Shown here: positions 38,840-59,733 of the stretch, piece after piece
How positions within the stretch are numbered: position 1 is the stretch's first letter
How the letters are laid out: each line of letters begins with the position of its first letter
DNA from: Cytophagaceae bacterium
Lineage (GTDB): Bacteria > Bacteroidota > Bacteroidia > Cytophagales > JAIYAX01
Direction of reading: 5' to 3'
NCBI GenBank assembly: GCA_027488815.1
Contig: JAIYAX010000022.1
Location: 1 to 59,733 of the forward strand
DNA: 59,733 nt
Translations under genes and position numbers: made by a program
Notes under the pieces: model-generated
What the model saw: only the letters and a program-made list of their open reading frames with translations
What the model was told of the DNA's origin: nothing
Database searches by the model: none

Positions 38840-39198
38840 TATCTTGGTCACGAACATTGCATTTTTATGCACATGTTTTAGAATAGAAGCTATACGGAAC
38901 GGGGAATTTTCTGTCAGCCCACAGCGATCAACCTGTTTCGCAATTGAGTATTCGCATTGATGGAGTCAGTCTTCGACAGGCTCAGACTGACAAGGGGAGG
39001 TATGAACTGCAAGCTCGCATTAGCGGGGACAGGGGGTTGTCGATACGAGACTAATGTTAAATGCCCTAATCCTTTATCATGGAGTGCCGATATTTCTGGT
39101 GCTTGTCGCAAGGCAACAGTTCAGGATAGATGGGGCAATGGTTTGCGTTTTCAATTCATAATCAATAACTTGCTCATGCCAACTAAACTATGCTTACG
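38840..39198. other. Intergenic region with a palindrome, no supported gene
   Basis: About 360 nt between the aminotransferase and the T9SS-tailed gene. An 81-codon frame (38957-39202) exists but has no start context or family likeness. The base composition here is GC-richer than the adjoining intergenic DNA, and it includes an inverted repeat at 38965-38991. It could be a decayed or inserted repeat block. Confidence 0.45.
38965..38991. repeat. REP-like inverted repeat
   Basis: GTCAGTCT (38965-38972) and AGACTGAC (38984-38991) around an 11-nt loop TTCGACAGGCT-type core. The same kind of sequence, with TTCGACAGGCTCAG, is a frequent intergenic motif in bacterial genomes. Copy number cannot be seen in one window. 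Confidence 0.5.
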
Positions 39199-41001
39199 AT
39201 GAGAAAGATTATACTGCTTTTTATTGCCCTCGCCCTACACGTTGAAGGATGGGCTCAATTGACTTCCTCTTCCTGGGGGCCAGATGTTTTTGGATATACG
39301 GCCAATGTAGTGCCCTATGCCTGGGTGGACATCAGCAGCCGCCCAGGGGTCGTGACGGTTTCAAACATGGGAGACGACGACTCCAAAGGACCATTTTTCA
39401 TTGGTTTTCCTTTTCATTACTATTGGACTGACTATACCCAAATACGAATTGGCTCCAACGGCTGGATCGGTTTTGGAAACACCTCTAATATAGCATCCTG
39501 TTTCCCAACCATTCCCGGTGCGGGAGGTGTGGCTGACAATTACCTGGCTCCTTTTATGGTGGATCTTAATCCGGCGGGTATTCCTGTGACCGGAAGTATA
39601 CAATACTGGAGCAATTTTTTCGACTCATTTGTGGTCACCTACAACAATATCCCTTACTGGACGAATAATGCGGGTCAACAAATCGGAAGTAACTCGTTCC
39701 AGGTGGTATTTAATTCCTTGGACAGCTCCATTCGCTATCAATACAATAGCATGACCAACAACTATTTTCAGGGATGTGCCTCTGATCTGGTGATTGGTTT
39801 TGAGAATGTGACCGGTGCCATCGGATTGCAGTTTGGTGTAGAGCAAGTTCCCACCAATAACACAGCTATTCGGATCAGAAGGCCTGTAAGTACCAGTTTT
39901 TCTGTTCCAGATGTGACACCTTTATGGGTGGGTAATACAGAAAGTGGGGGTAAAATCTATAAAACCGGTATACTGCCCCTTTTAACCGCCAATGTCAAAA
40001 ATGTGGGTAATACCGCAATCACCCAGACCATCACAGTGACAGGGAGGATACGAAATGCCAATCAATCCATCGTTTGGACAGAAAATACCCAGCTTTTTGG
40101 ATTACCAGCAGGCAGTGATCAACTCATCAATTTCACAACCCCGGCCACTTTGAATACTCCAGGCATCTACACTTATGAGGTTAGCACTTCCAGTTCTCAG
40201 GACATTAACCCCGGGAATGATCTTCGTACTGCCAAAATAGTCATGGTTCAGGCTCAGGGCGATAGTGTACGTTTGAGTTATGCCACTCAAAACCCTCCTT
40301 CTGGAAATCAAAGTTGGTCGGGGGGAGCATTTGATGATGGTATTGGTATTTATTACGAGCCTCCTTATTACCCTGCAAAAATCAACAGCATTCAAGCTTA
40401 CATCAGGGGTTTGGGTTCGGTTGACACCTTCTGGCTCAAAGTCTACAACGACATTGGCACCCCTGGAACTTTGCTTGATTCGATACAGGTAAATCCGGGT
40501 AGCTACACCTCTGAGAGTTGGGTAACCAGATCGCTGAGTACCCCTCAATTTATCTTCTCAGGTGGCTTTTATGTTGCCTGGATACAAGGTGGGGCGGTCA
40601 ACAGCTTAGGTTCTGAGACCACCATTAATCCTTCCAGAAGATCATATGAAATCCTGAGCGGAAGCTGGGCAGAGTTCAGAAGCAATACCACTCTGGAGTT
40701 ATTGATGAATGTATTCATTGAGTCCGACCTTATCACCGGACTAGATCCTTTAACAGGTATTGACCAGAACCAATGGCAAGTGTATCCTAACCCTGCGGGA
40801 GATGAAGTCGTAATATCGCTACATGATAAAAGTGAGCGATTGGTGCTGTATGATATGCAAGGCCGTGAAGTATTCGACGGCGAAACAGCAGATTTGAAAG
40901 GATCGATCAGGCTTACTTTAGAAAAGTTGTCGTCAGGTATTTATATGTTGACTGAGCAGTATTCAGGCGGGGTACGTAAGACGAAAGTGGTTAAGGAATA
41001 A
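39199..41001 (+). CDS. Secreted protein with T9SS C-terminal sorting domain
   Basis: 600 residues from ATG 39199. A signal peptide (about 1-20, ending GWAQ) is followed by a beta-rich N-terminal region with Trp/Tyr repeats, a CARDB-like immunoglobulin-type segment (about 255-350, ending NPGNDLRTAKI), and a further beta domain. The last ~75 residues (QVYPNPAGDEVVISL..., ending GVRKTKVVKE) are a classical T9SS type A tail. Exported through T9SS and probably attached to or released from the surface. Function unknown. Confidence 0.85.
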   Translation: MRKIILLFIALALHVEGWAQLTSSSWGPDVFGYTANVVPYAWVDISSRPGVVTVSNMGDDDSKGPFFIGFPFHYYWTDYTQIRIGSNGWIGFGNTSNIASCFPTIPGAGGVADNYLAPFMVDLNPAGIPVTGSIQYWSNFFDSFVVTYNNIPYWTNNAGQQIGSNSFQVVFNSLDSSIRYQYNSMTNNYFQGCASDLVIGFENVTGAIGLQFGVEQVPTNNTAIRIRRPVSTSFSVPDVTPLWVGNTESGGKIYKTGILPLLTANVKNVGNTAITQTITVTGRIRNANQSIVWTENTQLFGLPAGSDQLINFTTPATLNTPGIYTYEVSTSSSQDINPGNDLRTAKIVMVQAQGDSVRLSYATQNPPSGNQSWSGGAFDDGIGIYYEPPYYPAKINSIQAYIRGLGSVDTFWLKVYNDIGTPGTLLDSIQVNPGSYTSESWVTRSLSTPQFIFSGGFYVAWIQGGAVNSLGSETTINPSRRSYEILSGSWAEFRSNTTLELLMNVFIESDLITGLDPLTGIDQNQWQVYPNPAGDEVVISLHDKSERLVLYDMQGREVFDGETADLKGSIRLTLEKLSSGIYMLTEQYSGGVRKTKVVKE

Positions 41002-55092: not shown

Positions 55093-58000
55093 TTGACACT
55101 AGCTAATTCTGCCTTAACCTATTCAAAGGGAAAAGGCGCTTTCTATTTTTTAATTGGAGCAAAAACAAAACAACACCTTAAACTTGTTTCTGCCTTTCTA
55201 TTTATCGTGCTGTTAATGATGCAATTAGGCTCTAAAGCCTATGCTCAAAATACACTTGATCAGCTAGGGCTAAGTGCCGCTACTCCATCATTAGGTGCTT
55301 ACAGTTTAAGAAGACTAAGCAGTACTTATGTGGGGCCGGCCATTGCCGTTCTGAGGAGTTCAGACCTTAGTGTCTCAAACATTGGCTTCCTCCCTTCCGG
55401 TGTATTAGACACAGCCACACTCTTTTCTTTTATAGGTTCAGGAAACGGGACAGTGCAAGTTTGGTACGATCAGAGCGGATTTGGCAGAAATCTTACACAG
55501 GCAACAGCCACTTTGCAACCCCGCATAGTAAGTTCAGGAGAGCCACTGCGTGATCTGAATGGAAATATTACTCTCCGCTTTGACGGCATAGATGACCATA
55601 TGACAGGCACCATGAGCACTGGCCTTTTAAATGTTTCTCTAAACATGGTAGCCAGATTTAACAGCGGTGGAAACTCAGAAGACCTACCCTTTGTGATTGG
55701 ACAGGGAGGAACTGCACGTACTCTAAGGGCTTTTTACAGAACTAATAATGGCCCTAGCCTAGGTTATGCCACCTGGTCAAACGATGCCCCTACTAGTGCT
55801 CACAGATTATTCACGGATTCTGAACCTCATATTTTTTCAGTCTTGCAGAATGGTACATCCATCACTTTATCAAAAAATGGTGCTAACGATATCCGAACCG
55901 TTCCCTTGGCTCCCTTGGCAACAACTTCTGCTTTGATCCAAATAGGCTCGATCAGCAGTAATGTGGCACAGTATGCCTCAGGTGTTTCTTATTCTGAAGC
56001 CCTTGCATTTGGTTCAGTATTAAGTGTAGCTGACAAAAATATAGTAGAGTGCAACCAATCAGCGTTTTACAAAATTCCTCTCAGACCACTTGGCTTTGAA
56101 TACTTTGCTCAGGCAAGATCAAACGAAAGTGCCTGTCTTCTGGCAACTCAGTTTGTTACATGGCGAGCAGCCGACTTGGTTAACATGCAAGCAACTGGCA
56201 ATAGTGTTACCAAAATCCAATCTGACGCTAATTGGGATGGAGGTTTTGCTTCCTGGGACACTGTTTACAATCAGGGCTATTTGCAATTCATCGCCAGGGA
56301 AACCAACACCTTCAGAATGTGTGGCCTTAGCTCCACTAACATCAATACTAACTTCAATACCATACAATTTGCAGTTTACCTGCTGAATAACAGTACTTTT
56401 AGTGTGTATGAGTCAGGGGCTAACAGGGGTAGTTTTGGTACCTATTCCATAAATGATACTTTCCGGGTGGCAATTGAAAACAATGTGGTGAAATACTTCC
56501 GCAACAGTCAGTTGTTTTATATCTCAAACGTTGCCCCAACATTACCTTTGATTGTTGATGGTTCTGTTTACAGTATCAACGGAACGATTTCAGATGCCCT
56601 GGTAGTCAATAGAACCACAGGTCAATTTGTAGCCTATCCGATAAACGGAGGCGCATCTCCAACCTTTCTATGGCAGAGGAATGCAGCATCGACAGCAAGC
56701 ACTCAAATTTACAATGAACCCATTGTTTCAGCAGGTGATCTGATCAATGTAAGGTATGGGTTTACAGGCACCTGTGGGGCCACCAACGTCAATTCCCGAA
56801 ATATCAATATCAGTTCATCTCCCATACCCGGGTTCGATCTAAACGTTTCATCTTCGGTGCTGACGGATGGTTGTTTTTTGATTGAACAAGATGTCGTTTG
56901 GCAGCCTTCTTCGTTTACCAATGTGGACTTAAGTCAAGGCCTGATTAGGAAAATACAATTCGATAACAATTGGAACGGTGCAGGTTTTAGCCTCTCTTCC
57001 GTTTCAAACGACGGCTACTTACAGTTCAGAGCGACTGAAACCAACCGTGACCGTATGGTGGGATTAAGCAATACCAATGTGAACACCAGTTTCACCAGCA
57101 TTCAATTTGCTTTCTTCCTGGTGAGCAATGGAACCCTGAGAATATATGAGAGTGGCATCGACCGTGGGCAGTTCAGTACATTTGTAAACGGTGATATTCT
57201 TCAAATCAGAGTGGATGGGCAGATTGTTAAGTACATTCAAAACGGAAACATCATATACGTCAGCACAGTAAGCCCTACGCTACCTTTGTTTGTTGATTTT
57301 TCTATTGAAGACATAGGAGGCACTATAGCTGATGTAAAAACGGCAAGCTTCAGCAATGGAACATTTACGGCATCGGTATCCTCTGGTATACCCTCTCCCA
57401 GTTATCAATGGTTTTTAAATGGCTCCCCTACCGGCTTAAATAGTCCAACTTATAATCTCCCTTCATTTAACATTGGAGATAGCGTCTATGTAGTTGTAAC
57501 CCCTAATTTGCCGGGTTGCGGTTCTTCCACGATTAGCAGTGGTGTATCCTATGTTCGAAATACATTAAATGCTACCTCAATTGATTTTACCATTTCCGGT
57601 CAGCCTGTTTCATTCAGTTGCCAGCTTTCAGAGGAACCGGTCATTTGGCAAAGGAGCCAATTGGCCAATGTTCATGCCGATGGCAATCGATTGGTAAAAG
57701 TCCAATTCAACAATAACTGGAATGGAGGAGCCTTTTCACTGAACAGAGTTTCGAACGAAGGATATTTGCAATTCATAGCAACTGAAACCAACCGTGATCG
57801 GATGGTAGGCCTGAGCAACACCAATATAAACAGTAGTTTCAACTCTATACAGTATGCCTTTTTCTTAGTGAGCAATGGAATTTTGAACATCCATGAAACA
57901 GGAATAAACAGAGGCAACTTCGGCACATATGCCTCTGGAGATACTCTCAAAATAATGGTTGAAGGTAATGTGATTAAATATTTCAGGAATGGAAGCATTG

Positions 58001-59733
58001 TTTACATCAGTACTATAGCTCCTACCTTGCCACTGTTTGCAGATGTTTCGATTGAGGATGTTGGAGGTACAGTAGATCATCTGGTGCTTGCAAACTATAA
58101 TACCGGTACTTTTTTAGCCTCAGTTGGATCTGGAGTTTCCGGTCCATCGTATCAGTGGTTCTTAAATGGCAGCCCAGTTGGTACAAATAGCTCAAGCTAT
58201 GCCAATTCCGCCCTTCAAAACGGTGATCAGATTTATGCACAGCTAAGCCCGGGACTAGTTGGCTGCGGAACCAGAATTTACCGTTCTGACACCATCAATT
58301 ATAGAGACCTTCCCAGTCCAAGTACTATTGATTTTTTTGTCACTGGAGTGGACACCTTATCTGCTTGTTTGACGCTTGAGGAGCAAGTAAAATGGAGTTT
58401 GTCGGACATGGTGAATGTGCATGCGGATCAGAACAGCCTGGTAAAATCCAATGTCAATGGATGGAATGGAGGAGCGGCTAGTTGGAATACGGTTAAGAAC
58501 AATGGCTATTTTGAATTTACCGCATCGGAAACCAACCGAAACCGAATGGCTGGCTTAAGTAACACCAATGCCAATGCCAACTTCACCAGCATTCAATATG
58601 CGATTTACCTGGTAAATAATTCAACTGTTCAAGTATTTGAATCCGGGGCAGCGAGAGGTACTCTTACTTCATATGCTTCTGGAGATAAGTTCAAAGTCGC
58701 AGTGGATGCAGGGCAAGTAAAATACCTGAAAAATGACACGGTATTCTACATCTCTACCCTAGCTCCTACCCTTCCTTTGCTAGTAGATGTTTCTTTGGAT
58801 CAAATAGGAGCTACGATTACCAACGCAGTAGTATCCAATTATAATTCCGGTACTTTCATTGCCCAATCTGTGAATGCAGGCAGCCTTCCACAATTTACCT
58901 GGAGACGCAATGGGGTCGTTGTTCAAACCGGTACAAGCAATACATATTTTAACTCGTCAATTGTTAACGGAGATATCATCACCTGCACTCTTACTCCTGA
59001 TACCATTGGTTGTAGTGTTTCAGCTATAGTCTCAAATGCTTTAACTGCAAGAAATATCGTTGCTCCCTCAGGTATCGATTTCTTCATCCGAGGAACGGCA
59101 ACGGCATCAGCTTGTCTTACCGCTGAGGAACAAGTTCGTTGGAGACTAACCGACCAGGTGAATGTGCAAGCCAGCAACAACAACCTTCAAAAGTTTACCT
59201 CCAATGGATGGAACGGTGGGGCAGCAAGTTGGAACACCGTAAGCAACAACGGATACTTTCAGTTTGTTGCTTCTGAAACGAATCGGGATCGAATGGCTGG
59301 CTTGAGTACAACGAATGCTGATGCCAATTTCACCAGCATTCGGTATGCTTTTTATCTGGTAAGTAACAGTACCTTAAGGATATATGAAGCAGGAATTGAC
59401 CGGGGTCAATTTAGCACCTATATAACCGGCGACCGATTACGCATTACGATTGATGGAGGTCAAGTTAAATACCTAAAAAATGATACCCTTCTCTACATTT
59501 CTACTTTAGCACCAACCCTTCCGTTATTGGTTGATGTTTCATTATTTACTATTGGAAGTACCATCAACCAAGCAGTTGTCTCTAATTACAATACAGGCAC
59601 CTTTGTGGCAACTACTACCAATGCCGGCACTAATCCCAATTTTGTTTGGAGAGTGAATGGTACCGTGGTTCAATCCGGTCTAAGCAATACGTACACCAAT
59701 GCAACTTTAGCCAACAACGATACAATCTCCTGC
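55093..59733 (+). CDS. Giant secreted repeat protein (partial, runs off right edge)
   Basis: Open frame from TTG 55093 to the window end, 1547 residues without a stop. The start is TTG because an upstream in-frame stop lies at 55030 and the first ATG (55216) would cut into the signal peptide. A ~30-residue N-terminal extension precedes the signal core (LVSAFLFIVLLMMQL, ending AYAQ). Residues about 52-330 form an arabinofuranosidase-B/LamG-like domain (YSLRRLSS, VRSSD-like, WYDQSGFGRN). Five ~249-residue repeats follow from residue 357. C-terminal sorting signal, if any, lies beyond the edge. Probable surface adhesin or lectin; not an enzyme by any visible catalytic motif. Confidence 0.85.
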   Translation, partial: MTLANSALTYSKGKGAFYFLIGAKTKQHLKLVSAFLFIVLLMMQLGSKAYAQNTLDQLGLSAATPSLGAYSLRRLSSTYVGPAIAVLRSSDLSVSNIGFLPSGVLDTATLFSFIGSGNGTVQVWYDQSGFGRNLTQATATLQPRIVSSGEPLRDLNGNITLRFDGIDDHMTGTMSTGLLNVSLNMVARFNSGGNSEDLPFVIGQGGTARTLRAFYRTNNGPSLGYATWSNDAPTSAHRLFTDSEPHIFSVLQNGTSITLSKNGANDIRTVPLAPLATTSALIQIGSISSNVAQYASGVSYSEALAFGSVLSVADKNIVECNQSAFYKIPLRPLGFEYFAQARSNESACLLATQFVTWRAADLVNMQATGNSVTKIQSDANWDGGFASWDTVYNQGYLQFIARETNTFRMCGLSSTNINTNFNTIQFAVYLLNNSTFSVYESGANRGSFGTYSINDTFRVAIENNVVKYFRNSQLFYISNVAPTLPLIVDGSVYSINGTISDALVVNRTTGQFVAYPINGGASPTFLWQRNAASTASTQIYNEPIVSAGDLINVRYGFTGTCGATNVNSRNINISSSPIPGFDLNVSSSVLTDGCFLIEQDVVWQPSSFTNVDLSQGLIRKIQFDNNWNGAGFSLSSVSNDGYLQFRATETNRDRMVGLSNTNVNTSFTSIQFAFFLVSNGTLRIYESGIDRGQFSTFVNGDILQIRVDGQIVKYIQNGNIIYVSTVSPTLPLFVDFSIEDIGGTIADVKTASFSNGTFTASVSSGIPSPSYQWFLNGSPTGLNSPTYNLPSFNIGDSVYVVVTPNLPGCGSSTISSGVSYVRNTLNATSIDFTISGQPVSFSCQLSEEPVIWQRSQLANVHADGNRLVKVQFNNNWNGGAFSLNRVSNEGYLQFIATETNRDRMVGLSNTNINSSFNSIQYAFFLVSNGILNIHETGINRGNFGTYASGDTLKIMVEGNVIKYFRNGSIVYISTIAPTLPLFADVSIEDVGGTVDHLVLANYNTGTFLASVGSGVSGPSYQWFLNGSPVGTNSSSYANSALQNGDQIYAQLSPGLVGCGTRIYRSDTINYRDLPSPSTIDFFVTGVDTLSACLTLEEQVKWSLSDMVNVHADQNSLVKSNVNGWNGGAASWNTVKNNGYFEFTASETNRNRMAGLSNTNANANFTSIQYAIYLVNNSTVQVFESGAARGTLTSYASGDKFKVAVDAGQVKYLKNDTVFYISTLAPTLPLLVDVSLDQIGATITNAVVSNYNSGTFIAQSVNAGSLPQFTWRRNGVVVQTGTSNTYFNSSIVNGDIITCTLTPDTIGCSVSAIVSNALTARNIVAPSGIDFFIRGTATASACLTAEEQVRWRLTDQVNVQASNNNLQKFTSNGWNGGAASWNTVSNNGYFQFVASETNRDRMAGLSTTNADANFTSIRYAFYLVSNSTLRIYEAGIDRGQFSTYITGDRLRITIDGGQVKYLKNDTLLYISTLAPTLPLLVDVSLFTIGSTINQAVVSNYNTGTFVATTTNAGTNPNFVWRVNGTVVQSGLSNTYTNATLANNDTISC
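56161..59733 (+). repeat. Five ~249-residue tandem protein repeats
   Basis: Unit starts (a conserved Trp) are at 56161, 56899, 57646, 58393 and 59140, so spacing is 738, then 747, 747, 747 nt. The last is cut by the edge. Each unit has a lectin-like half with WNGG, GYLQF, ETNRDRM, GLSNTN, VKY, APTLPL and VDVS, then an immunoglobulin-like half with W...NG and a Cys-containing GCG/GCS. Units 2-3 and 4-5 resemble each other as pairs. Confidence 0.88.

Follow-up and report, generated by a model that had tools for sequence, protein, structure and literature searches.

A putative giant surface rod of SPRY-Ig repeats encoded across a contig end in a Cytophagaceae genome

The last reading frame of the window, by which we mean the whole stretch of 59,733 nucleotides that was analysed, runs off the end of its contig in the middle of a long protein repeat. 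What does such a gene encode, and what might so many copies of one module do for the cell? Giant surface proteins exported by the T9SS are common in Bacteroidota, and giant T9SS adhesins are already known; to our knowledge, few of these proteins have a known architecture. The account that we favour, with a probability of roughly 60%, is that the gene encodes a giant T9SS-exported surface rod that acts as an adhesin, with an adhesive head carried on a stapled stalk. Within this account, we infer the adhesion itself, the orientation with the head distal, and the disulfides.

The gene at the contig end and its likely continuation

Contig C30, which the window spans in full, belongs to a genome of 3.37 Mb and 30 contigs. 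A single open frame on the plus strand extends from a TTG codon at 55093 to the contig end (ORF 55093-59733), which truncates it after 1547 codons. It contains five units with anchor motifs at residues 421, 667, 916, 1164, and 1413, giving anchor-to-anchor distances of 246, 249, 248, and 249 residues (738, 747, 744, and 747 nt). The sequence-only reading had described a very large repeat protein with units recurring every 747 nt at almost constant length; both descriptions hold, the second to within 9 nt. When the protein is compared with itself without gaps, identity peaks at an offset of 249 residues (370 of 1298 positions, 28.5%); in the list of the 12 best offsets, identity is about 12-13% at those not near a multiple of the unit length. 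From a profile of the first (SPRY-like) part of the unit together with the unit boundaries, we placed unit 1, an SPRY-like plus Ig-like unit of 246 residues, at 56086..56823, and units 2, 3, and 4, of 249 residues each, at 56824..57570, 57571..58317, and 58318..59064. The same profile and a two-unit structure model place unit 5 at 59065..59733, its Ig part truncated by the contig end; all five lie on the plus strand.

A protein search of the genome finds the module only at the end of C30 and at the start of contig C17, with the two ends facing each other. From its first base, C17 is in frame inside a unit and continues for 933 codons, covering the greater part of a unit, a complete further unit, and then a C-terminal region. 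This region comprises a stem-like part (WNGS...NW...) and an LPVEF part, both named by sequence appearance without a family match, and closes with a T9SS type A sorting domain. An exact copy of the first 20 bases of C17 occurs in unit 5, although C30 and C17 share no overlap at their ends. The C30 and C17 frames are probably one gene. If the contigs adjoin with a single stretch missing, simple arithmetic puts the gap at about 81 residues (about 243 nt) and the protein would have seven units and about 2,560 residues, although the gap could hide further units. One check proposed earlier was to extend the frame toward its stop and count the repeats: provided that C17 continues the gene, it adds two units for a total of at least seven, and the repeats persist beyond the window. 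The gene cut at the contig end thus has a likely assembly neighbour that can now be named. In a relative of the same order (G027), the module again lies at a contig end (L081, G027:C46:9000-13276), and such arrays therefore seem to break assemblies.

Both ends of the joined frame carry signals for export. A predicted signal peptide occupies 55093..55245 on the plus strand (KTKQHLKLVSAFLFIVLLMMQLGSKAYA followed by QNTLDQ in translation), with cleavage expected between AYA and Q. Its start codon is uncertain, given that the frame opens with the TTG at 55093 and no ATG precedes the hydrophobic core. Cleavage before Q agrees with the 'Q-rule' of Bacteroidetes (PMC5837995), and the mature N-termini of relatives likewise begin with QNTL or QC. 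At the other end, the C terminus of the C17 frame matches Por_Secre_tail with 35 bits (cut-off 27) and TIGR04183 with 25.8 bits (cut-off 23). The same genome encodes SprA (2611 bits) and the sortase PorU (1164.6 bits) and has 101 places that match Por_Secre_tail. Type A T9SS proteins are covalently anchored at the surface, according to PMC9143113. Display of the protein on the cell surface is likely on the basis of its type A sorting domain, SprA, the sortase, and the 101 Por_Secre_tail places, in keeping with the surface role first suggested for it. The window also encodes a second predicted T9SS substrate at 39190-41001 on the plus strand, with Por_Secre_tail at 40780-40974 (42.6 bits).

The SprB-type gliding adhesins of Flavobacterium johnsoniae are likewise very large, T9SS-exported surface proteins of Bacteroidota, and SprB is large and repetitive. 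SprB belongs to the type B substrates and depends on SprF for its anchoring (PMC12635249), whereas the continuation of the window's gene carries a type A domain; the distinction drawn here is one of sorting-domain type.

The repeat unit and its junctions

A model of units 4 and 5, built with 49 sequences, has a pLDDT of 94.7 and a pTM of 0.84. It divides unit 4 into a SPRY fold at about residues 1-178 and an Ig-like domain at about residues 179-249. SPRY beta-sandwich folds occupy the top rows of the structural comparison for the first domain, led by the SPRY domain of RanBP10 (5jia; Z 16.9, rmsd 2.3, 146 residues aligned) and followed by RanBP9 (16.7), TRIM9 (16.3), and Ash2L (about 16). Sequence profiles capture little of this. 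The first part of the unit has no Pfam or NCBIfam family match; against the Pfam SPRY family PF00622, neither the SPRY part of the window's protein (E threshold 10) nor the complete protein (E threshold 1) gives a match, and just one of the 49 alignment members matches it, with an E of 0.02. Searches of PDB sequences with the module returned weak matches only. On the whole protein, the Pfam Ig families stay below their cut-offs (Ig_3, 26.2 bits against 30; Ig_2, 21.7 against 27), as does Ig_2 on the Ig part of unit 4 (18.7 bits against 27), so the assignment of the second domain as Ig-like is suggestive. Taken as described, the repeat and its folds are very probably right, each unit being a SPRY/B30.2-fold domain followed by an Ig-like domain; this makes more exact the earlier description of lectin/Ig modules, lectin-like being read here as concanavalin-type.

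SPRY domains are best known as binders of peptides and proteins in eukaryotes. The first domain of the unit has its fold in common with the SPRY/B30.2 domains of RanBP9/10, Ash2L, TRIM, and SPSB proteins, and differs from them in being secreted, in alternating with Ig-like domains in tandem, and in escaping the Pfam SPRY model. Given that its closest solved folds belong to a family generally known for protein binding, the rod could instead be a scaffold whose SPRY domains bind peptides or proteins, linking cells in cell-cell recognition or capturing secreted proteins. We consider this unlikely. The general fold is also that of a sugar-binding module, CBM66 of Bacillus subtilis (4azz, Z 14.0), although it scores below the SPRY domains and is 8% identical; the link to SPRY at the sequence level is confined to the single alignment member above; and the loops are not diversified. 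Paralogue/orthologue divergence is 1.69 in the strands of the SPRY domain and 1.61 in its loops, about equal, so this comparison gives no signal of binding surfaces diversified between units. A stalk or a uniform binder would fit such equal divergence better than diversified recognition.

The units appear to be joined by more than peptide linkers. Over 123 units, the exact alignment columns hold Cys 17 in 98%, Cys 232 in 98%, and Cys 223 in 93%; with a tolerance of two columns either way, 113 units have all three, 6 lack only Cys 223 (the window's units 1-3 among them), 2 lack only Cys 17, and 2 lack all three. Cys 232 lies at the Ig end of a unit and Cys 17 at the SPRY start; wherever two retained units adjoin, Cys 232 of the first and Cys 17 of the second are both present (93 of 93 junctions). 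In the window, cysteine conservation points to Cys 232 of unit 4 (codon 59011..59013, plus strand) and Cys 17 of unit 5 (codon 59113..59115, plus strand) as one such proposed disulfide pair.

The beginnings of the arrays fit the same scheme. A cysteine lies no more than 60 residues upstream of Cys 17 in 20 of 20 uncut first units, counted by hand with each locus taken once and with L050 (masked) and L061 and L063 (single modules without Cys 17) excluded. In arrays with a head before them, this is the cysteine of an ECNQ-like motif or one four residues further along (L046, L062); in arrays with nothing before them, it is residue 2 after the predicted signal cleavage (L057, L059, L074, L075, L076). 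There is a counter-example in L060, where Cys 17 is missing and the preceding Ig domain keeps both of its cysteines; this junction is not among the 93. From this pattern of conservation, Cys 17 would bond to the preceding domain and so staple each junction by a disulfide, with Cys 223 presumably a replaceable residue of the core.

Relatives and the history of the arrays

Scanning species genomes yielded 30 loci (83 stretches matched the search pattern and 34 were confirmed), most of them from draft MAGs and most from Bacteroidota by record title, including Chitinophagaceae, Flammeovirgaceae, Cytophagaceae, Flavobacterium, and others. At an E of 1e-10 the module occurs in 3 of 395 genomes of the phylum, the window's own included, and the family is therefore scattered. 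Of the genomes that carry the 30 loci, we searched 12: in 8, every match falls within a single frame, G448 combines a nine-unit frame with a weaker match at another place, and the arrays of G445, G452, and G453 are each spread over two contigs. Nine long frames, of 1,808-5,429 residues, contain 4, 5, 7, 9, 9, 9, 10, 18, and 19 units. The typical architecture is a signal peptide, zero to three GH54-like heads, 4-19 units, and further C-terminal regions; the arrays L074, L075, and L076 are headless. Whole neighbouring units follow each other at steps of 246-256 residues, and shorter steps correspond to cut or masked units.

Several individual records stand somewhat apart. Single SPRY-like modules, without an array and without Cys 17, occur at L061:5947-6693 (record: Chloracidobacterium) and L063:5938-6684 (Candidatus Giovannonibacteria). 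L055, an array contig of 5.6 kb, is filed under an alphaproteobacterial MAG, and misbinning seems likely. In Flavobacterium cyanobacteriorum, the frame changes within the array (L048:6803-6897), reflecting either a sequencing error or a broken gene. The genes next to the window's frame and its C17 continuation, which we named from reading their sequences (thymidylate synthase, an aminotransferase, an MMPL-type exporter), are absent beside the arrays elsewhere within the short flanks available; the sole exception is a 25% aminotransferase match near L039/L082.

Protein identity among the units of the window's gene and its continuation ranges from 34 to 66%: 54% between units 2 and 3, 66% between units 4 and 5, 66% between unit 5 and unit 6 on C17, and 34-50% for the remaining pairs. 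The sequence-only reading had paired units 2+3 and 4+5 and proposed growth by duplication of two-unit blocks. The pairs themselves are real, although unit 5 is equally close to unit 6. Growth by blocks, under which units 2 and 4 and units 3 and 5 should be closest, does not stand: these pairs are 40% and 49% identical compared with 54-66% for neighbours, and the unit tree (97 units from 10 genes) also argues against it. In this tree, units 2-6 cluster together as a lineage-specific group, ((2,3),(6,(4,5))), with units 1 and 7 apart. On these comparisons, the window's array is best read as having grown by copying of single units. True two-unit blocks do exist in L041/L076 (L041:4372-12498), where identity is 79-93% among units 3, 5, and 7 and likewise among units 4, 6, and 8; in the middle of this array, identity is 85-93% at an offset of two units compared with 67-71% between neighbours. 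First and last units do not form common groups of 'caps' across the tree, except for the first units of L074, L075, and L076.

Between species, the arrays are colinear. All 18 units of L074 find their best matches in L075 in the same order, and L075 has one extra unit, number 3; this unit is 57-66% alike to its own neighbours (43% to the first), which argues that it is not a recent copy. Likewise, 9 of 9 units pair in order between L078 and L079. For orthologous units, dN is 0.149 against a dS of 1.64 in L078/L079, and 0.156 against 2.95, a nearly saturated value, in L074/L075. The colinearity in two species pairs and the dN well below dS indicate arrays that are old, kept by purifying selection, and slow to change length. 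Periscope arrays change length rapidly and differ in this from the colinear arrays described here.

The repeat could alternatively be an inert spacer that sets length, with function residing only in the head or in the stem. The range of 4 to 19 units across genomes at a constant spacing of 246-256 residues where both units are whole would suit a spacer, as would loops without diversification of their own. The headless arrays L074, L075, and L076 speak against it, however, and the conservation of order, unit by unit, exceeds what a spacer seems to need. We think it doubtful, too, that the stalk does nothing but provide length.

The head, its phage relatives, and what the rod may mean

The head domain lies at 55246..56076 on the plus strand and was assigned from PF09206 and from a structure model. 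The PF09206 match reaches 33.9 bits (cut-off 25) and spans only profile positions 7-87 of 315; the model is of middling confidence (pLDDT 68.7, pTM 0.73). It aligns with the GH54 structure 6sxt with a Z of 22.2 (rmsd 3.1, 255 residues aligned), the next different family reaching 15.5, and Foldseek matches it to 2d43 with a TM of 0.68. A motif in the head sequence matches residues 12-87 of the AbfB chain with an E of 2.9e-9. The likeness to arabinofuranosidase B that had been noted at the N terminus is therefore borne out, partially by the family profile and more broadly by the fold. The sugar binding that this likeness had suggested may hold, given the sugar-enzyme fold of the head, although the units carry SPRY domains, a family best known for protein partners. 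The head has in common with the GH54 alpha-L-arabinofuranosidase B (1wd3, 6sxt) the fold of the catalytic domain; it differs in that only its first quarter is recognisable by sequence and in that it heads an adhesin-like array.

The catalytic residues were located by structural correspondence. The match ends at model residue 277, equivalent to AbfB 334, and E308 of AbfB corresponds to model E251, both 26 residues before this end; the position holds Glu in 17 of 18 family members and Asp in one. AbfB D297, the acid/base residue, lies 11 residues before E308 (the fragment checked is chain residues 274-316, numbered 17 below the usual scheme). In the window's protein, residues 230-250, around the position expected for D297, contain no Asp or Glu. 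Among 18 family members, the same stretch is free of acidic residues in 10 and has at least one in 8, and its absence speaks for the window's protein only. For the nucleophile E221 (the mutant named in the title of 6sxr), AbfB fragments placed by HMM or MAFFT scored below zero and were misplaced to the wrong end of the domain, and the head region expected to hold it has a pLDDT of about 45-50. In the phylum, PF09206 occurs in 5 of 247 genomes, each match covering 78-105 of 315 positions and all lying within profile positions 7-112. The lack of an acidic residue at 230-250 and the partial matches across the phylum suggest that the head is probably non-catalytic, binding being the likelier role.

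These data bear directly on the idea that the protein is a surface enzyme, with an active GH54 arabinofuranosidase as its head and the SPRY-Ig units as carbohydrate-binding modules on hemicellulose or pectin. The margin of the GH54 fold over the next family and the PF09206 score above cut-off would support it, as would the resemblance of the SPRY-like domain to CBM66. Against these stand the match limited to the start of the PF09206 profile, here and across the phylum, the stretch around D297 without acidic residues, and the three headless arrays. We set the active arabinofuranosidase aside on the first two of these grounds and regard the enzyme as improbable.

Both recognition domains also have relatives in phages. 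The head matches phrog_10356 over residues 16-283 (E 3.2e-22), and more generally phage tail, minor tail, and structural proteins; the SPRY part matches phrog_19691 (E 1.7e-11). Over query residues 15-130, the SPRY part is 31.9% identical (E 2e-6) to gp015 of Cellulophaga phage phi13:1 (and of phiST), a structural protein found in the virion by MS/MS. This gp015 is a relative at the sequence level, with a single match and no array found in phi13:1. The recurrence of both domains in phage virions would favour binding over catalysis. In PMC8195603, the origin of SPRY domains is placed in phage tail proteins, and none is reported from prokaryotic conflict systems. Separately, the beginning of the head (within 55246-56076) shows 48-51% identity with Gordonia phage proteins across some 100 residues, and its phage matches are annotated variously as alpha-L-arabinofuranosidase, minor tail protein, or virion structural protein. 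That the rod is itself a receptor or decoy for phages with these domains in their structural proteins, as the matches of SPRY part and head might suggest, is very improbable, since a common stock of binding domains accounts more simply for the sharing and a strict pattern scan of viral contigs matched 48 stretches and confirmed none as the module.

In the adhesin account, the signal peptide would direct the protein to the periplasm, and the C-terminal type A domain would bring it across the T9SS translocon and lead to its covalent anchoring. The long rod would project from the outer membrane on a stalk of at least seven SPRY-Ig units, each probably stapled to its neighbour by a disulfide. At the tip, away from the anchor, the GH54-like head would be the first part to touch a glycan or glycoprotein, and the SPRY domains may add numerous weak interactions over the length of the stalk.

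Periscope proteins and RTX adhesins (PMC9704523, PMC6650083) are likewise long adhesins of the cell surface that contain repeats or a binding domain, but their secretion and anchoring systems and their domains differ. Our literature search, which covered titles and the beginnings of abstracts, found no paper on SPRY-Ig arrays of this kind. What seems new is the SPRY-Ig unit with its fixed length and junction cysteines, undescribed in the family libraries and literature searched. Beyond this, we propose tentatively, at somewhat less than even odds, a new family of giant Bacteroidota rods, usually one per genome, with 4-19 fixed-length SPRY-Ig units locked at their junctions by disulfides. Such a rod would be a force-bearing chain in which each unit keeps its place across species, with binding domains drawn from the stock found in phage virions. 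The 249-residue unit, which has no Pfam or NCBIfam model, offers a handle for annotating giant T9SS surface proteins and places a SPRY-fold domain in bacterial surface arrays. It also makes testable the idea that long adhesins can bear force because their domains are covalently stapled to one another.
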